In this document: positions 56,600-64,000 of the stretch, piece by piece
Layout: each line of letters begins with the position of its first letter
Numbering within the stretch: the stretch's first letter is position 1
Assembly (NCBI GenBank): GCA_019636755.1
Contig: JAHBWZ010000005.1
Coordinates: 1 to 64,000, forward strand
Direction: 5' to 3'
Origin: Phycisphaeraceae bacterium
GTDB lineage: Bacteria; Planctomycetota; Phycisphaerae; Phycisphaerales; SM1A02
DNA length: 64,000 bases
The notes under the pieces: model-generated
What the model was told of the DNA's origin: nothing
The model's input: the letters and a program-made list of their open reading frames with translations, nothing else
Databases searched by the model: none
Position numbers and translations under genes: made by a program

Positions 56600-58297
56600 A
56601 TGACCACTCTCACACCATCCCGTCCGGCATTCGCCCCGAGCAATTACCTGACGCACTCCCGCGGCGTGCTCTCGTGGGCGATGACGCTCGATCACAAGCG
56701 GATCGGCATCATGTACCTGCTCGGTGTGCTGGGATCGTTCCTGCTGGGCGGCATCTTCGCGCTGCTCGTGCGGACCGAACTCATCTGGCCCGGCCAGACC
56801 ATCATGACCGCCGATCAGTACAACCGTGCCTTCACGCTGCACGGCGCGATCATGGTCTTCCTGGTCATCATCCCGTCGGTCCCCGCCGCGCTGGGCAACT
56901 TCGTCCTGCCGATCATGCTCGGGGCGAAGGACGTGGCGTTTCCCAGGCTGAACCTGGGTTCGTTCTACCTCTGGGTGCTCGGCGCGGTCCTCGCGGTCCT
57001 CGCCATGCTCTCCGGCGGCATCGATACCGGATGGACCTTCTACACGCCGTACTCCATCGAAGCGGACCGGCAGGGCGTGATCTGGGTGGCATCCGCCGTC
57101 TTCATCCTGGGATTCTCGTCGATCTTCACCGGCATCAACTTCATCGTCACGATCCACCGGCTCCGACCGCAGGGCATGACCTGGTTCCGGATGCCGCTCT
57201 TCCTCTGGGCCCTGTATGCGACCGCGGTCATCCAGGTCCTCGCGACGCCCGTGCTCGGCATCACCGTGCTGCTTCTCATGGTGGAGAAGGTCATGGGCAT
57301 CGGGATCTTCGACCCGTCGCTCGGCGGCGACCCGGTCCTCTTCCAGCACTTCTTCTGGTTCTACTCCCATCCGGCGGTCTACATCATGATCCTGCCGGCG
57401 ATGGGCATCGTGTCCGAACTGATCTCGGTGCACAGCCACCGGCACATCTTCGGCTACCGGTTCATCGCGTTCAGTTCGGTCGCCATCGCGATCTTCGGGT
57501 TCCTGGTCTGGGGACATCACATGTTCGCCAGCGGCCAGTCACCGCTGATGAACGCGCTCTTCTCCATGATCACGTTCAGCGTGTCGATCCCGTCGGCGAT
57601 CAAGGTCTTCAACTGGCTCGCCACCATGTACCGCGGGCGGATCAGCCTGAACACGCCGATGCTGTACGGCCTCTCGTTCATCTTCATCTTCACGATCGGC
57701 GGCCTGACCGGCATCCCGCTCGGCACGCTGGCGACGGACATCCACCTCCACGACACCTACTTCGTGGTAGCGCACTTCCATTACGTCATGATGGGAAGCG
57801 CCCTCATCGCGATGATCGGCGGCATGCATCACTGGTGGCCGAAGATGACCGGGCGGATGTACAGCGAGACCGCCGGCCGGATCGGCGCCATCGGCGTCTT
57901 CCTCGGCTTCAACTTCACGTTCTTCCCCCAGTTCATGCTCGGCAGCCTCGGCATGCCGCGCCGGTACTTCGACTACCAGGCCGGGTTCAGCCAGGACCTG
58001 ACGGAACTCTTCCACGTCTATCACTTCCTCTCGACGCTCGGCTCGTACTTCATGGCGCTGGCGTTCTTCTGGACGGCCGGATACCTGCTCCATTCCCTCT
58101 TCCGCGGCGAGCGTGCGCCGGCGAATCCGTGGGGCGGCGCGAGCCTGGAGTGGAAGTGCAGCAGTCCGCCGCCGCACGACAACTTCGCCGAGCAGCCGGC
58201 GGTCGGCGACTGCTATGACTACGACCAGATCGAGTGGGACGAGGCGGCGAAGGGCTACCGCTTCCGAGAGAACTACACGCCCGCCGCGGCACACTGA
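56600..58297 (+). CDS. coxA: caa3 oxidase subunit I (A2 type)
   Basis: A 565-residue subunit with 12 transmembrane helices. Low-spin heme His is in [10 protein letters not shown]. CuB ligands are in F-Y-S-H-P-A-V-Y near residue 255 and G-H-H-M-F-A-S-G-Q near 305, and the heme a3 His is in A-H-F-H-Y-V near 391. The Y-S-H-P-A-V form lacks the D-channel Glu of H-P-E-V and has the Tyr-Ser pair typical of A2-type oxygen reductases as in Rhodothermus. It pumps protons while reducing O2. Confidence 0.93.
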
Positions 58298-58322
58298 TCC
58301 GCGATTTCGGAGCCAACGACCG

Positions 58323-58745
58323 ATGGGCCATCGACCTGCATCTCAGACCGCCGGGCAAGAGGCGGCCGGACACGGAGCGGAAGCGCACGCCCATGGCGGG
58401 CACGGCGCGGTGGGTCACGTTGCACCGCTCCGCGCGCTCATCGGGACCGGCGCAGCGCTGCTCGTCCTCACCTGGCTCACCGTGGCGGTGACCAGGGTGG
58501 ACCTCGGGGAACTCAACATCTTCGTCGCACTGGGCGTGGCGACGGTGAAGGCCGGCCTGGTCATGCTCTTCTTCATGCACCTGCGCTGGGATCGACCCTT
58601 CAACGCGATCGTGTGCATCGGGTCCATCGCGTTCGTGGCGCTCATGATCGCATTCACGATTCTCGACACCGCCGAGTACCAGGACACGATCAATCCCGGT
58701 GATGCAAAGGCGGTCCGGGAGACGATCGAATCGCTCGGCAACTGA
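58323..58745 (+). CDS. caa3 oxidase subunit IV
   Basis: A 140-residue protein with a His-rich N-terminus (G-H-G-A-E-A-H-A-H-G-G-H-G) and three hydrophobic segments, including L-V-M-L-F-F-M-H-L-R-W, the signature of prokaryotic cytochrome oxidase subunit IV (COX4/CtaF-type). The His-rich tract may bind metal. It follows coxA by 25 bp and ends just at the probable start of subunit III. Confidence 0.82.
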   Translation: MGHRPASQTAGQEAAGHGAEAHAHGGHGAVGHVAPLRALIGTGAALLVLTWLTVAVTRVDLGELNIFVALGVATVKAGLVMLFFMHLRWDRPFNAIVCIGSIAFVALMIAFTILDTAEYQDTINPGDAKAVRETIESLGN

Positions 58746-58798
58746 CGCGGGACGCATTCCGGAACGACGCTGAGCGCGAGCATGCCCGTCGCTTCGGC

Positions 58799-59335
58799 AT
58801 GCTGCTGTTCCTCGCGTCGCTCGGGGCGCTCTTCGCGGCCTCGGTGATCGGCTGCGGCTGGATCCGCGTGCAGCTCGAGCAGGAGGGCGCGTGGCCCGAC
58901 GCGCTGCCCGCGCTGCCGCCGGTGCTTTTCCTCACCCTCCCCGTGCTGGTGGTGATCAGCGTCCTGCTGCATCGCGCGGCGACGGCGACGGCGCCGGGCG
59001 TGGTCCGCCGGATGGCGGACCGGGCCCTCGCGGGCGGCGCGGTGTTCGTGGCGATCCAGGCGTTCGCGTGGCGGTCGTGGACGGGGCACATGTCGGCGTC
59101 CTTCGAGATCGCCGAGGGCGCGCGGCTGGCATCGACGGCGTTCGGCCTGCTCAGCGGCCTGCACGCGGCGCACGTGCTGGGCGGACTCGTCGCGCTGCTC
59201 CTGCTGCGGCGCAGCGCGGCGGGCCCGCGCGGGTCCGCGCTGGCGCGATCGGTCGCGGCGTACTGGCACTTCCTGGGCGGGGTCTGGCTGGTCCTGCTGG
59301 TGGCGATGCTTGCGCTTCTGACACCGGCGGTGTGA
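58799..59335 (+). CDS. caa3 oxidase subunit III
   Basis: A membrane protein of 178 residues from this ATG, with five hydrophobic segments and the subunit III signature L-H-A-A-H-V-L-G-G-L and Y-W-H-F-L-G-G-V-W-L-V. Upstream of the ATG the same frame reads D-A-F-R-N-D-A-E-R-E-H-A-R-R-F-G, matching the normal N-terminus of the family. That would require a CTG start at 58742, overlapping the subunit IV stop as CTGA and giving 197 residues. ATG 58799 is reported as the conservative start. Confidence 0.8.
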   Translation: MLLFLASLGALFAASVIGCGWIRVQLEQEGAWPDALPALPPVLFLTLPVLVVISVLLHRAATATAPGVVRRMADRALAGGAVFVAIQAFAWRSWTGHMSASFEIAEGARLASTAFGLLSGLHAAHVLGGLVALLLLRRSAAGPRGSALARSVAAYWHFLGGVWLVLLVAMLALLTPAV

Positions 59336-59389
59336 ATGGCTCAGGCTGAGACACCCTCAGCGTCACCACCCGACAGCACGCCTGCTGCC

Positions 59390-59460
59390 TCACGCGGACC
59401 GGAGACCCGGCAGCATCAGCAGGTCGGCGAAGCCGACAGCGCCGTCACCGTCACGGGGGC
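59390..59460 (-). pseudogene. Orphan dockerin-module remnant
   Basis: On the minus strand the frame reads R-D-G-D-G-A-V-G-F-A-D-L-L-M-L, then diverges to P-G-L-R-S-A and stops. This is one dockerin loop plus half of its helix, ending where the L-L-A-A-W-G block should be. There is no start codon or gene body upstream. Confidence 0.55.
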
Positions 59461-59552
59461 CCTCTGCGACCTGTACGCCGGGCGATCCGGATGGACGCCC
59501 GCATGCGGTGGTGTGCCTTGACGCGCCGGCGGGCGGCCACTATCGTCTCCTC

Positions 59553-59570
59553 CTGAGAATGCGTTCTCAG
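59553..59570. promoter_or_regulatory. Fur-family-like palindrome upstream of the surface-protein cluster
   Basis: CTGAGAA (59553-59559), TGCG, TTCTCAG (59564-59570) is a perfect palindrome. The TGAGAAt core resembles operators of Fur-superfamily metal regulators, usually TGA-N9-TCA; here the spacing is one base longer. It lies 60 bp before the next gene. Confidence 0.45.
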
Positions 59571-59630
59571 CAACGACCAGCCCCGGTCCGGCCACCGGCG
59601 CCACCGTCGCCCGGCGGTGCGGCACGGGGC

Positions 59631-60110
59631 ATGCGCCGCCGGACATCGATGGTCGCCCGTGTGCTCGTGATCGTCGCGATCGCGGCGATGGCCGGTGGCG
59701 CCAGGTGGGTGCACCTTGCGCACGGGCATGGTGGGAGCGCCTGGAACGCGCCAGGGGACGAGCGCACCACCGGAGAGGTCGATGCGCACGGCGGCCAGCG
59801 CGGCAGCGCATCGGGCGCTCGTTGCTGCACCGGTGCGTGCTGCGGTCGCGTGCACGGATCGGTCGGATTGACAGTGCTGCGGACCGATGGCGATGGCGAC
59901 GGCGACGAGCCGGTGCCCCTGGATGAGCACTCGCCGGACGATTGCGGGATCTGCACGCTCCTGGCGTCGCTGGCGTGCGCTGTCCCGGCCGTGCCCGCGG
60001 CGCCGCTGCTGCCGGGCGCGGTCGACATCGCCTGTCCTGTCCCCGCGCAGCGCCGGTTCGTCTCGACCGTGTCCGGCCCGCGAAGGCCGCGGCCGCCGCC
60101 GGTGATCTGA
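59631..60110 (+). CDS. Exported Cys/His-rich small protein
   Basis: A 159-residue protein with a signal peptide (V-A-R-V-L-V-I-V-A-I-A-A-M-A-G-G-A). H-L-A-H-G-H-G-G, C-C-T-G-A-C-C-G-R-V-H and D-D-C-G-I-C-T-L-L-A-S-L-A-C follow. The last resembles the D-x-C-x-x-C-x-x-L segment of short DUF2946-like exported proteins linked to copper; this is a weak match. ATG 59631 (or 59649) is preferred because the longer GTG 59508 frame would contain the palindrome. Confidence 0.55.
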   Translation: MRRRTSMVARVLVIVAIAAMAGGARWVHLAHGHGGSAWNAPGDERTTGEVDAHGGQRGSASGARCCTGACCGRVHGSVGLTVLRTDGDGDGDEPVPLDEHSPDDCGICTLLASLACAVPAVPAAPLLPGAVDIACPVPAQRRFVSTVSGPRRPRPPPVI

Positions 60111-60334
60111 GCCGCATGCGCTGCGTCTGACTCGGCAGCACGGTGCGTGGGGCGTTGCCCGCGCGACGTGCAGCGCCGTCGCCGCCGCGCGATGTCGTTC
60201 GCGCCGTTCACGCGTCGTCCACCCGGATCGCGCGCTGGCCGCGTCCGTCACGTCGCATGGCGTGACGGAGCCGCGACCGGCGGGTTCGCGTCCGTCGTCC
60301 CAATCCCCTCACACCTGCATCGGGAGCCGACGTC

Positions 60335-61108
60335 ATGTCGTCGCATACTCGTGCGTTCACGCTGACGGAACTGATTCTCGTTGTCGCGATCATCGCCGTC
60401 CTGGTCGGGATCGCCGTGCCCGTCGTCGGCCGGGTCCGCCACCTCGGTCGGGTGACGGGCTGTCTCTCCAACCTGCGACAGGTCCAGATGGCCCACATGG
60501 CGTGGGTGGCGGAGAAGCGCGGCCGCTTCGTCGAGGTCGGGCTGGGACACGGCGGCGCCGATGACCTCGCCGCGACGTGGGTGAATGCGCTGCGGCCGTA
60601 TTACGACGATGAGCGCATCCTGCGATCACCGCTCGACCGCTCGTCACACTGGCCGCCGGGCAGTGGCCCGGACAGCGGCGTTCCGATTCCGCCATCGACC
60701 GACCGGTACCGGCGCTCGAGTTACGGCCGCAACAACTTCCTCTCGGCCACTCTCTCGCCGAGCGAGCGACCGGCCGACCGGCTGAGCGCGGTGGTGAATC
60801 CGGCGGCGACGGTCGACTTCCTGATGCTCGCGTTCAGCGGTCCCTACGCGGGCTCCGACCATGTGCACGTGGAGACGTGGGTGGTGCCGGGCGCACCGGA
60901 CGAGTCCCCGGCGCTCGCGTCCGCGCAGGTCGCCATTGCCGCAGTCGGCGGGCCGGAGGCGTCCTGGGAGTCCCGTGCGAACTGGGGGTTCCTGGACGGC
61001 CGCAGCGCGACGCACCGGTTTGCGGAGGTCTTCCGGTCATTCGAGCGCAACCGGATGGACCCGGAAGTGGCGGCGAAGACGGTCGTCATGGACGCGATGA
61101 GTCGGTAG
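60335..61108 (+). CDS. Stand-alone pseudopilin of the metal-box cluster
   Basis: A 257-residue prepilin. The leader M-S-S-H-T-R precedes A-F-T-L-T-E-L-I-L-V-V-A-I-I-A-V-L-V-G-I-A-V-P, with Phe+1 and Glu+5. It continues with L-S-N-L-R-Q-V-Q-M-A-H-M-A-W and a C-terminal W-G-F-L-D-G-R-S-A-T-H-R-F element, the D-G motif of planctomycete prepilin families. GGGAG lies about 9 bp before the ATG. Like the pseudopilin at 37871 it sits beside a dockerin gene, here 61218-62006. Confidence 0.8.
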   Translation: MSSHTRAFTLTELILVVAIIAVLVGIAVPVVGRVRHLGRVTGCLSNLRQVQMAHMAWVAEKRGRFVEVGLGHGGADDLAATWVNALRPYYDDERILRSPLDRSSHWPPGSGPDSGVPIPPSTDRYRRSSYGRNNFLSATLSPSERPADRLSAVVNPAATVDFLMLAFSGPYAGSDHVHVETWVVPGAPDESPALASAQVAIAAVGGPEASWESRANWGFLDGRSATHRFAEVFRSFERNRMDPEVAAKTVVMDAMSR

Positions 61109-61217
61109 TGCATCAGCGTACGTCGCCGGCGTCGCTGACGCCGTCCGTCCGTACACATCGATCGCAGGCGCGAGCACAGGGACGGCTCGCGCCGCTGAAG
61201 CAGCAGAGGAGTCCAGC

Positions 61218-62006
61218 ATGCATCCATTCCGCACCAGGATCGTGGCAACAGCGACGGTGATTGCGTGCATCGTCGTCGGCGCCGCGCACGGTCAGCACGA
61301 TGGAGACATCTTCGTCGATGTCGTCGACGCGCGGATCGTCACCGGTACAGTCGGCCCCGGCGGTGCCGCCCAGGTCCCGTACCGCGTATTCGCCGGTCAG
61401 TTCGGGCCCGCACACTTCGCGTCCGATCCCGGCTTCGACGCGCCGGCGGGGACGTTCCCGGCAGGGACCCGCGTCGGCTTCAACGTGCTTGCCACACTCG
61501 AGCGGTGGAACGGCGACGGCTTCGACCCTGCCTCCGGCGAGACACTCACGATCTCCTTCTTCACCTCCCAGGTGACCACCGCCGATGGCCCTGTTCCCGG
61601 CTTCGACATCGCCGTGCAGGCGAACGGCGGATGGCACCGCCACCTTGGTTTCCTCCTCAATCCACCGCCGGACGAGGGCACGCCATCGCCCGGCGTCTAT
61701 CGCCTGTCGCTCGAGCTCTACTCGACGGCGGCGGCGATCGGCACGTCCGATCCGTTCTGGATCCTGTTCCTGAGCGGAGGCGACACCGCATCGCATGCGG
61801 CGGCGATCGCGTGGATGGAGGGGGTGCTCGCCTGTCCGGCGGATCTGGACGGCGACGGCAACGTCGGATTCACGGATCTCCTGGCGCTGCTTGCGGCGTG
61901 GGGGCCGTGCGCGCCGGGACCGTGCGCGGCGGACCTCGATGGCGATCAGCAGGTCGGGTTCGCGGATCTCCTGGCGCTGCTCTCGGTCTTCGGTCCCTGC
62001 CGCTGA
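61218..62006 (+). CDS. Secreted dockerin protein, homologous body to 62065-62766
   Basis: A 262-residue protein, well started (GAGGAGTCCAGC before ATG), with a signal peptide ending near residue 27 (A-A-H-G-Q). The body has G-D-I-F-V-D-V-V-D-A-R-I-V-T-G-T-V, Y-R-V-F-A-G-Q-F-G, F-A-S-D-P-G-F and L-E-R-W-N-G-D-G-F-D, which line up with the next gene. The end carries two dockerin loops (D-L-D-G-D-G-N-V-G-F, D-L-D-G-D-Q-Q-V-G-F). It is likely co-regulated with the genes on either side. Confidence 0.85.
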   Translation: MHPFRTRIVATATVIACIVVGAAHGQHDGDIFVDVVDARIVTGTVGPGGAAQVPYRVFAGQFGPAHFASDPGFDAPAGTFPAGTRVGFNVLATLERWNGDGFDPASGETLTISFFTSQVTTADGPVPGFDIAVQANGGWHRHLGFLLNPPPDEGTPSPGVYRLSLELYSTAAAIGTSDPFWILFLSGGDTASHAAAIAWMEGVLACPADLDGDGNVGFTDLLALLAAWGPCAPGPCAADLDGDQQVGFADLLALLSVFGPCR

Positions 62007-62064
62007 CGCGGCGCGATCACGGTATCCGGTTGTTCCTGGTCACCTTCACTCCAAGGAGTTCACA

Positions 62065-62766
62065 ATGCTCGCACATGGACGGCACTCCCGCATGCGCAGG
62101 GTTCCTCCGATCGTGCTCACCGTGGTCATGGCCACATCCGTCGTCTCGGCAGACGGCGTTCATGGCGACGTCTGGCTGCGCGTGGCGGGCGATCAGCTTG
62201 TCACGGGACTGGTCGACGAGGACGGCACGCCGGTCGAGTCGGCGTGGCGCGTCTTCGCGGGAGAGTTCGGCGAGGATCCGCGCTTTCCGTTCTTTGCAGA
62301 TCACCCCGGCTTCCGCCTGTTCGGCGGATCAGTCGCGCCCGGTTCGCCGTTCACGATCAACATCGCCGGTCCCGTTGAGCGCTGGACGGGCGCAGGCTTC
62401 GGCGCGACGCCTTCGCTCATGACGATCGCCTACGGACCTGGCAGCGTGACGAGCGGTGGGGGATACGTGTCCGGGTTCCAGTGGCATGCCGACGCACGGG
62501 GAGGGTTTCACGGCCACTTCGACCTGGAGATCCACCAGGACGGCGGCGATCCCGAGGACGGGATCTACCTGCTCCCGCTTTCGATCAGCAGCGACATCGC
62601 GACGGCGACGCCGGTGTTCTGGTTCGTGATGAACCTGGGCGCGGATGAGCGCGACCACGAACGGGCGATCGACTGGGTGATCACGAGGCTGGTGCCGGGG
62701 CCTGGCGCCCTCCCGCTGTGCGTGCTCATGGCGTGCGCGGGCGTCAGAAGCCGCAGGCGACGATGA
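62065..62766 (+). CDS. Secreted protein with variant C-terminal sorting signal
   Basis: A 233-residue protein with a signal peptide ending near residue 28 (S-V-V-S-A-D-G). Its body is related to the preceding dockerin protein (G-D-V-W-L-R-V-A-G-D-Q-L-V-T-G, W-R-V-F-A-G-E-F-G, F-F-A-D-H-P-G-F, V-E-R-W-T-G-A-G-F). Instead of a dockerin it ends V-P-G-P-G-A-L-P, a hydrophobic helix (L-C-V-L-M-A-C-A-G-V) and R-S-R-R-R-R, a PEP-CTERM-like anchor. AAGGAGTTCACA precedes the ATG. Gap to the previous gene is 58 bp. Confidence 0.8.
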   Translation: MLAHGRHSRMRRVPPIVLTVVMATSVVSADGVHGDVWLRVAGDQLVTGLVDEDGTPVESAWRVFAGEFGEDPRFPFFADHPGFRLFGGSVAPGSPFTINIAGPVERWTGAGFGATPSLMTIAYGPGSVTSGGGYVSGFQWHADARGGFHGHFDLEIHQDGGDPEDGIYLLPLSISSDIATATPVFWFVMNLGADERDHERAIDWVITRLVPGPGALPLCVLMACAGVRSRRRR

Positions 62767-62769
62767 CAG

Positions 62770-62797
62770 TTGACGCCGCGGGGGGGGGGGGTAAAGT
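62770..62797 (+). promoter_or_regulatory. Promoter-like site with a 12-G spacer tract
   Basis: TTGACG (62770-62775) and TAAAGT (62792-62797) are separated by 16 bp, of which 12 are an unbroken G run (62780-62791). The site is the only promoter-like motif before the gene at 62961, giving a leader of about 155 nt. Confidence 0.55.
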
Positions 62798-62960
62798 AGC
62801 CGTCGGAGCTGCACGCAGGCCGACGGTGCCCCTCTCTCCCGGGGTGGTCAACCAGGCGGGGCGGATTCATCGCAGCGGATGTGGGAATGCGCGCGCCGAC
62901 CGGGCCCGTGCGTGCACGCCCGGCTGACACGGTGCCCGGGATCAGGAAGGAGTCAGGGTG

Positions 62961-63830
62961 ATGTCGTCCATCGAGAGGAGCGCACGCGCGCGTCTGCGGC
63001 CGTCCCTCGTGGTCGCGCTGCTGATCGTGGTGACAGGCGTCGCCGGGAGCGTCGCAGAGGCCGCGGAGGGCAAGGAACGGCTTCTGCCCGGCACGCCGCT
63101 GCGCCTCATCCTGGAGGCAGCCTTCTCCGAGGGCGGATCGTTGGTCATGGCATCGGAATACGCGGACCGGGCACTTCGACGGATGAGAGGCGAAGCGGTT
63201 GAGCCGATTGACCCGTCGTGGTACGCCTTCGCGGATCCCGAGTGCGCACGGCTCCTGTCCCCGGACTCGGCGCCGTACGAGATCGTGGTCCGCGCGTTCG
63301 AGTCTGGTGGCTGGTCACCGGAAGGGGCCGAGCTGCTGGCGGCGCTGGCGGTGCTGCATGAGCTGGGCGGCTCACTGCCCCCCCCGGCGACAGCAGAACC
63401 TCGCGGCCTGGATGATCTCACGGTCACCGCGTCCGAGGTGTGGGCCGCCGTCGGGGGCGCCAGCGGCGTGCAGACGTGCCTCTTCTTCAGGGTCGCGATC
63501 CGGTACTGCACGCCGACGGGGCAGATGGTGGAGGAATGGCGGTACATCAATCTGCCCTGCTGGTCGCAACGTTGGACGCAGAGTGCCTGCGTCATCGCGT
63601 GTACCTATCCCACGAACTTCCCATGGGCGCGCCTGCGTGGCGGCGCGGCGTGCCCGGAGGTCGATGCCCAGTGCTTCTGGCTGAGCATCAAGGGGAAGCA
63701 GGTGTCCCGGCCGTGCGATACCCCGGGACAGATGTCATGCGATTGCCTGCCGTCGGCCGGCGACTGTCCGGCATGGAACATCCAGTGCTTCGACCTGAAC
63801 GGACCAGACGACCGCCCGTCCTGCAACTGA
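62961..63830 (+). CDS. Secreted cysteine-rich protein, unknown
   Basis: A 289-residue protein with a signal peptide (about residues 1-36, L-V-V-A-L-L-I-V-V-T-G-V-A-G, ending A-E-A-A). The N-terminal half is helical (L-L-P-G-T-P-L-R-L-I-L-E-A). The C-terminal half has at least ten Cys residues, among them Q-T-C-L-F-F, R-Y-C-T-P, L-P-C-W, S-A-C-V-I-A-C, Q-C-F-W, M-S-C-D-C-L-P and I-Q-C-F-D, suggesting disulfides. AAGGAGTCAGGGTG lies before ATG 62961; GTG 62958 is an alternative. No family was recognised. Confidence 0.7.
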   Translation: MSSIERSARARLRPSLVVALLIVVTGVAGSVAEAAEGKERLLPGTPLRLILEAAFSEGGSLVMASEYADRALRRMRGEAVEPIDPSWYAFADPECARLLSPDSAPYEIVVRAFESGGWSPEGAELLAALAVLHELGGSLPPPATAEPRGLDDLTVTASEVWAAVGGASGVQTCLFFRVAIRYCTPTGQMVEEWRYINLPCWSQRWTQSACVIACTYPTNFPWARLRGGAACPEVDAQCFWLSIKGKQVSRPCDTPGQMSCDCLPSAGDCPAWNIQCFDLNGPDDRPSCN

Positions 63831-63861
63831 CCGGCGCGGATGGCTCGCGGTGCACAGTCGA

Positions 63862-63899
63862 ACGCCGGCCGGCATCCCGTGCGGGATGCCGGCCGGCGT
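63862..63899. terminator. Strong hairpin terminator shared with convergent mscL
   Basis: A perfect 17-bp stem (ACGCCGGCCGGCATCCC with complement) and loop GTGC is followed by GGCTTTCTG. It lies between the + gene ending at 63830 and the - gene ending at 63942 and could stop both. Confidence 0.75.
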
Positions 63900-63941
63900 G
63901 GCTTTCTGATCGACAGCGCGGCGGGCGTGCCCGCGCGCCGC

Positions 63942-64000
63942 TCAGCGACCGGCCTTCAGGAGGTCGCGGATCTCGCCCAGGAGTTTCTCCTCGGCGGACG
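63942..64000 (-). CDS. mscL: C-terminal end of MscL-like mechanosensitive channel (partial)
   Basis: The minus-strand frame entering from the right edge reads S-A-E-E-K-L-L-G-E-I-R-D-L-L-K-A-G-R and stops at 63942. E-E-x-L-L-x-E-I-R-D-L-L is the conserved C-terminal helix of large-conductance mechanosensitive channels, which form a cytoplasmic bundle and open under osmotic shock. Only 18 residues plus the stop are visible. Confidence 0.7.
   Translation of the reverse strand, partial: SAEEKLLGEIRDLLKAGR

Follow-up and report, generated by a model that had tools for sequence, protein, structure and literature searches.

A run of twelve G residues fills most of the spacer between the -35 and -10 boxes of a promoter-like site at positions 62770-62797 of the window, the whole stretch of 64,000 nucleotides that was analysed. 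We think it likely that the site is a promoter made phase-variable (or rheostat-like) by slipped-strand mispairing, and that it belongs to a small group of promoters through which secreted Cys-rich proteins are switched. The initial annotation had put the site forward as a candidate phase-variable switch, and as a candidate it is well supported: the layout recurs across the genome, long G runs are enriched in promoter spacers, genes for secreted or Cys-rich proteins lie downstream, and a paralog is found in a locked form. Box anatomy, enrichment, recurrence in the genome and in the class, and the fixed-spacing paralog are read directly from the DNA; slippage at G12, its effect on transcription and an adaptive role are what we infer from them.

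The promoter and the gene downstream

The -35 hexamer TTGACG (62770..62775, forward strand, as are the other parts of the locus given with coordinates) has a 5/6 match to consensus and is followed by a 16-bp spacer (62776..62791) made of CCGC (62776-62779) and the G12 homopolymer (62780..62791), the proposed slippage tract. The -10 hexamer TAAAGT (62792..62797) abuts the tract. Re-reading of the sequence returned exactly the boxes and the mostly-G spacer first described. As in promoters of the porA type, the poly-G lies between boxes recognised by consensus, at a spacing from which single-base changes reach the 16-18 bp optimum. The promoter sits in a 194-nt intergenic gap between a gene end at 62766 and an ATG at 62961, with the first base of TTGACG 4 nt past the upstream stop codon. 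The upstream gene (62065..62766), whose secreted-like product has a PEP-CTERM-like end by eye, is outside the switch. An Rfam scan of 61900-64000 gave nothing near gathering score, so this segment holds no known riboswitch. DNA of the locus is found in relatives only as fragments of 30-55 bp.

The gene that begins 163 nt downstream of the promoter has an ATG start 8 nt after a good Shine-Dalgarno sequence, AGGAAGGAG (62944..62952), and extends over 62961..63830 including the stop (coding 62961-63827). Its 289-aa product carries an N-terminal hydrophobic signal, recognised by a heuristic hydrophobicity rule, and 14 Cys, with a Cys-rich C-terminal half. This agrees with the secreted, Cys-rich protein announced by the initial annotation, and a surface or secreted product behind the promoter is a further trait of the porA type, here judged by the same heuristic rule and the 14 Cys. 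By sequence comparison the protein is an orphan. It has zero Pfam or NCBIfam matches and thus no known family, no relatives among 40 related genomes, and none in GTDB genomes, where the host genome is possibly masked. It shares a signal and Cys-richness with the proteins of the sister loci described below, without clear sequence similarity. A single-sequence AlphaFold model had a mean pLDDT of 37 and was unusable. Right ahead of the Cys-rich half the gene contains a run of eight C (63378-63385), the only C8 in the window where 1.4 are expected by chance; a one-base slip there would delete this half. Downstream of the gene, before a convergent mscL-like gene, an inverted repeat (63862..63899) with perfect 18-bp arms around a 2-nt loop makes a hairpin, a probable terminator.

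The window has a GC content of 71%; a first-order Markov model predicts 0.02 runs of at least 12 G in it, a third-order one 0.001. The claim that no second homopolymer reaches this length holds for G and C: apart from G12, no run of either base exceeds 8 in the window. Among its 398 G runs of four or more, G12 alone has a -35/-10 context. A promoter scan of 58000-64000 found 2 promoter-like sites, one of them the G12 promoter, against 0.3 expected. The G12 promoter is not a product of chance, because only about 0.02 such runs are expected and long G runs are enriched between promoter boxes.

Long G runs and promoter boxes across the genome

The host genome (4.11 Mb, 20 contigs, 99.4% complete) has 38 G runs of nine or more. 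Enrichment was assessed in the fetched genome stretches plus the window, calling boxes where TTGAC lies a few nucleotides before the run and TANNNT 0-4 nt after it, with the G4-8 runs of the same stretches as control. Both boxes flank 4/20 runs of G10 or longer and 0/1168 of the G4-8 runs (Fisher P = 5.9e-8). The three other boxed long runs are all upstream of small secreted Cys-rich genes. Over the genome, the pattern TTGACN{1,9}G6N{0,7}TANNNT has 9 matches and its reversed form 0. A related group of loci (C1:240802, C1:250512, C20:109992 and the end of contig C11) shows TTGCGT ahead of G10-24, then TAC..T where the contig continues; the first three precede genes for secreted-like proteins that are 81-82% identical and have 10 Cys. 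A secreted-like gene, called by a simple hydrophobicity test applied with the same rule to both sets, follows 6/7 poly-G promoters of the genome and 7/31 control promoters (P = 0.0035), and 16/23 poly-G promoters when class loci are added (P = 0.0007). The controls counted are the 31 with a callable gene. About 70 promoter-like sites of the genome have a spacing of 16-18 and no long G run. Since the reversed pattern gives 58 matches, many of these 70 sites could be chance occurrences; one of the positive controls is the locked paralog (C12:271072). The poly-G promoters of this Phycisphaerales genome are a small set, several of them ahead of small secreted Cys-rich proteins.

Some features of the assembly could suggest that G12 is no promoter but a chance or assembly-made run, for example a two-colour poly-G read artefact, with transcription starting elsewhere. 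Long runs of G or C terminate several contigs, and G19-A-C14 at an internal site resembles a false join. The window G12 is, however, internal to a 336-kb contig (contig 16 of the genome) and has unique flanks, and an artefact could not create enrichment between -35 and -10 boxes. Contig-end tracts occur in either polarity (about 5 versus 3), which an artefact of read tails, being one-sided, fails to explain. Tract polarity and box enrichment together rule out the poly-G read artefact, and an origin of the run in chance or assembly is hardly credible. Eight contigs (C1, C3, C6, C10, C11, C12, C17 and C18) have a run of 17-56 G or C at or close to an end (loci L021, L023, L024, L026, L027, L031, L040 and L044). 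These ends reflect breakage at true long tracts; the exact tract lengths there are untrustworthy. The C12 end reads G50-ATG-TATCCT and is perhaps, from its letters, the lower half of another poly-G promoter. The internal site, on contig C20, reads G14-T-C19 (L048, 2002-2035), which is G19-A-C14 on the other strand; it lies within a promoter-like site and is a probable false join.

A locus on contig C12 (L068, C12:231500-249500) holds three tandem poly-G cassettes at reversed positions 2172, 5296 and 7458. Cassettes 1 and 2 have 16-bp spacers, in TTGACA-CTT-G12-T-TAGACT and TTGACA-CTT-G11-AG-TAGACT respectively, and each encodes a secreted-like protein of 152-153 aa with 13 Cys together with a partner of about 480 aa. 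Around the two tracts, 342 bp of DNA share 93% identity; most of this stretch lies upstream, and it stops shortly beyond the tract. In cassette 3, TTGACA-GAC-G8-TAAATT, the spacer is 11 bp and the gene has decayed. Promoters at C15:134635 (G15, spacing 19) and C15:74732 (G8, spacing 13) likewise precede a gene for a small secreted-like protein and a partner gene. A fourth copy of the C12 arrangement lies at C12:271072 (L244, C12:269700-271150), 24 kb from a poly-G sister cassette. It keeps the pair of small gene and partner gene, its small protein is 60% identical to that of cassette 1, and its 16-bp spacer, CCCGCAGGGGTGGCGG, has no homopolymer; judged by its sequence, it looks like a switch that has been locked naturally. 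Pfam searches with the small and partner proteins of the sister cassettes gave only a weak DUF1573 match, on a third gene. A class-wide search with the small-protein family A4 found members in its own genome only, plus two marginal matches containing stops.

Variation in tract length and the proposed switch

Promoters with G9 or longer spacers occur in 29/397 genomes of the class, the reversed pattern having 2 matches in the class sample. Over 154 matches the spacing ranges from 9 to 19 and is most often 14-16, within gaps that the search pattern itself restricts. Lengths that drift about a functional optimum would give such a spread, and the 14-16 peak is suggestive of this. Two genomes of one genus carry homologous loci (L212 and L213) with G11 and G13, at spacings of 14 and 16, between conserved boxes, TTGACACRC and TAAACTATACTCCCG. 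In this pair, which is only an indirect case of the length variation that marks porA-type promoters, tract length drifts and the boxes are retained. No second genome of the window's own genus was found in the samples searched. In a distant Phycisphaerae genome (L205), a G12-spacer promoter precedes two genes, the first encoding 124 aa with 15 Cys and the second again secreted-like; the layout is that of the sister cassettes, with no evident sequence relation. GTDB genomes include at least 114 stretches with a poly-G-spacer promoter in many phyla, the matches listed including Helicobacter, Haemophilus, Treponema, Moraxella and Bifidobacterium, which makes the architecture general rather than special to this lineage.

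Drift of this kind could also go with a true promoter in which the G-rich spacer is functionally inert, slippage moving the tract and selection purging bad spacings with no adaptive switching. Spacers of G7-8 do precede ordinary genes (plsX-like, tRNA-like), and a spacing of 16 bp is kept in three promoters of the genome that differ in spacer composition. The plsX-like gene at C14:341781 follows a G6-8 spacer, and in two relatives (L062, L063) TTGACC..G8..TATACT is conserved just before a tRNA-like gene. G8 spacers therefore seem to occur in housekeeping promoters too, and a G-rich spacer ahead of an ordinary gene means that such a spacer alone is no proof of switching. Against an inert spacer, tracts of ten or more concentrate on secreted orphan genes and not on housekeeping genes, the sister loci show spacings of 11, 13 and 19, and one paralog shows that a non-homopolymeric spacer is viable. 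We regard the inert spacer as unlikely.

According to the phase-variable reading, 62961-63827 would be transcribed from a sigma-70-type promoter with G12 as its spacer, and slipped-strand mispairing at replication would gain or lose single G's. The -35/-10 distance would shift around an optimum of 16-17 bp and alter transcription, leaving a population that mixes cells high, low or off for the secreted Cys-rich protein. By analogy with known promoters, 12 G (16 bp) is probably active, 13 G (17 bp) should be active, and tracts well below or above these lengths would be weak or off. Beside the G6-8 spacers ahead of ordinary genes, three features count against this reading. The -35 box is TTGACG rather than TTGACA, and the predicted 5' leader of about 155 nt compares with about 70-100 nt in the sibling cassettes. 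The genome also encodes MutS and MutL, which lower slippage rates and fit an inert spacer as well; slippage may still occur, at a lower rate than where repair is deficient.

A wider and more tentative proposal, which we consider possible but rather doubtful, is a multi-locus phasome of Phycisphaerae, in which poly-G-spacer promoters would stochastically pick the small secreted Cys-rich proteins of each cell. These proteins would often be encoded beside a larger secreted partner, and cassettes would duplicate, then decay or become locked. The products may serve antagonism, evasion of predators or phages, or surface variation in free-living bacteria.

Comparison with known poly-G promoters

Phase variation by simple repeats has been studied mostly in host-adapted pathogens of animals. 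A literature search found no paper joining "Phycisphaer" with "phase variation". The switch mechanism is already known; as far as this search reaches, its occurrence in this lineage and on this group of secreted Cys-rich genes looks new. If the proposed switch is real, environmental planctomycetes too make use of contingency loci, and orphan secreted Cys-rich genes are flagged as a protein set under diversifying ecological pressure.

Twelve consecutive G can form a quadruplex, and the main effect of the run might come from DNA structure, be it a G-quadruplex or a stiff duplex, or from a site for a regulator, rather than from spacing. A precedent is the poly-G of Treponema pallidum tprL, which works without altering box spacing (PMC7864442). 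The window tract lies exactly between the boxes at a permitted spacing, and the paralog without the tract retains that spacing, which leaves an action through structure or a regulator most improbable. The tprL tract overlaps the -10 region (PMC7864442), whereas the window tract makes up most of the spacer. The likeness to tprE/G/J/L lies in poly-G tracts, variable in length in the tpr genes, ahead of a set of paralogous genes for exported proteins. Closer in position is T. pallidum tp0126, with poly-G between -35 and -10, where transcription is best when the tract sets the spacing to 17, as cited in PMC7864442. Spacing in the window is 16, the product is unrelated, and the case is known from sequence alone.

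A close parallel is porA of Neisseria meningitidis, in which poly-G (9-11 in porA, 12 here) likewise occupies the promoter spacer ahead of the gene for an exported protein. There, shortening of the tract from 11G to 10G cuts surface PorA about twofold (PMC3639595), and expression is graded rather than strictly on or off (PMC3639595). The window promoter, known from its DNA only, differs in belonging to an environmental planctomycete and in its downstream gene, which encodes no porin but an orphan protein, secreted and Cys-rich.
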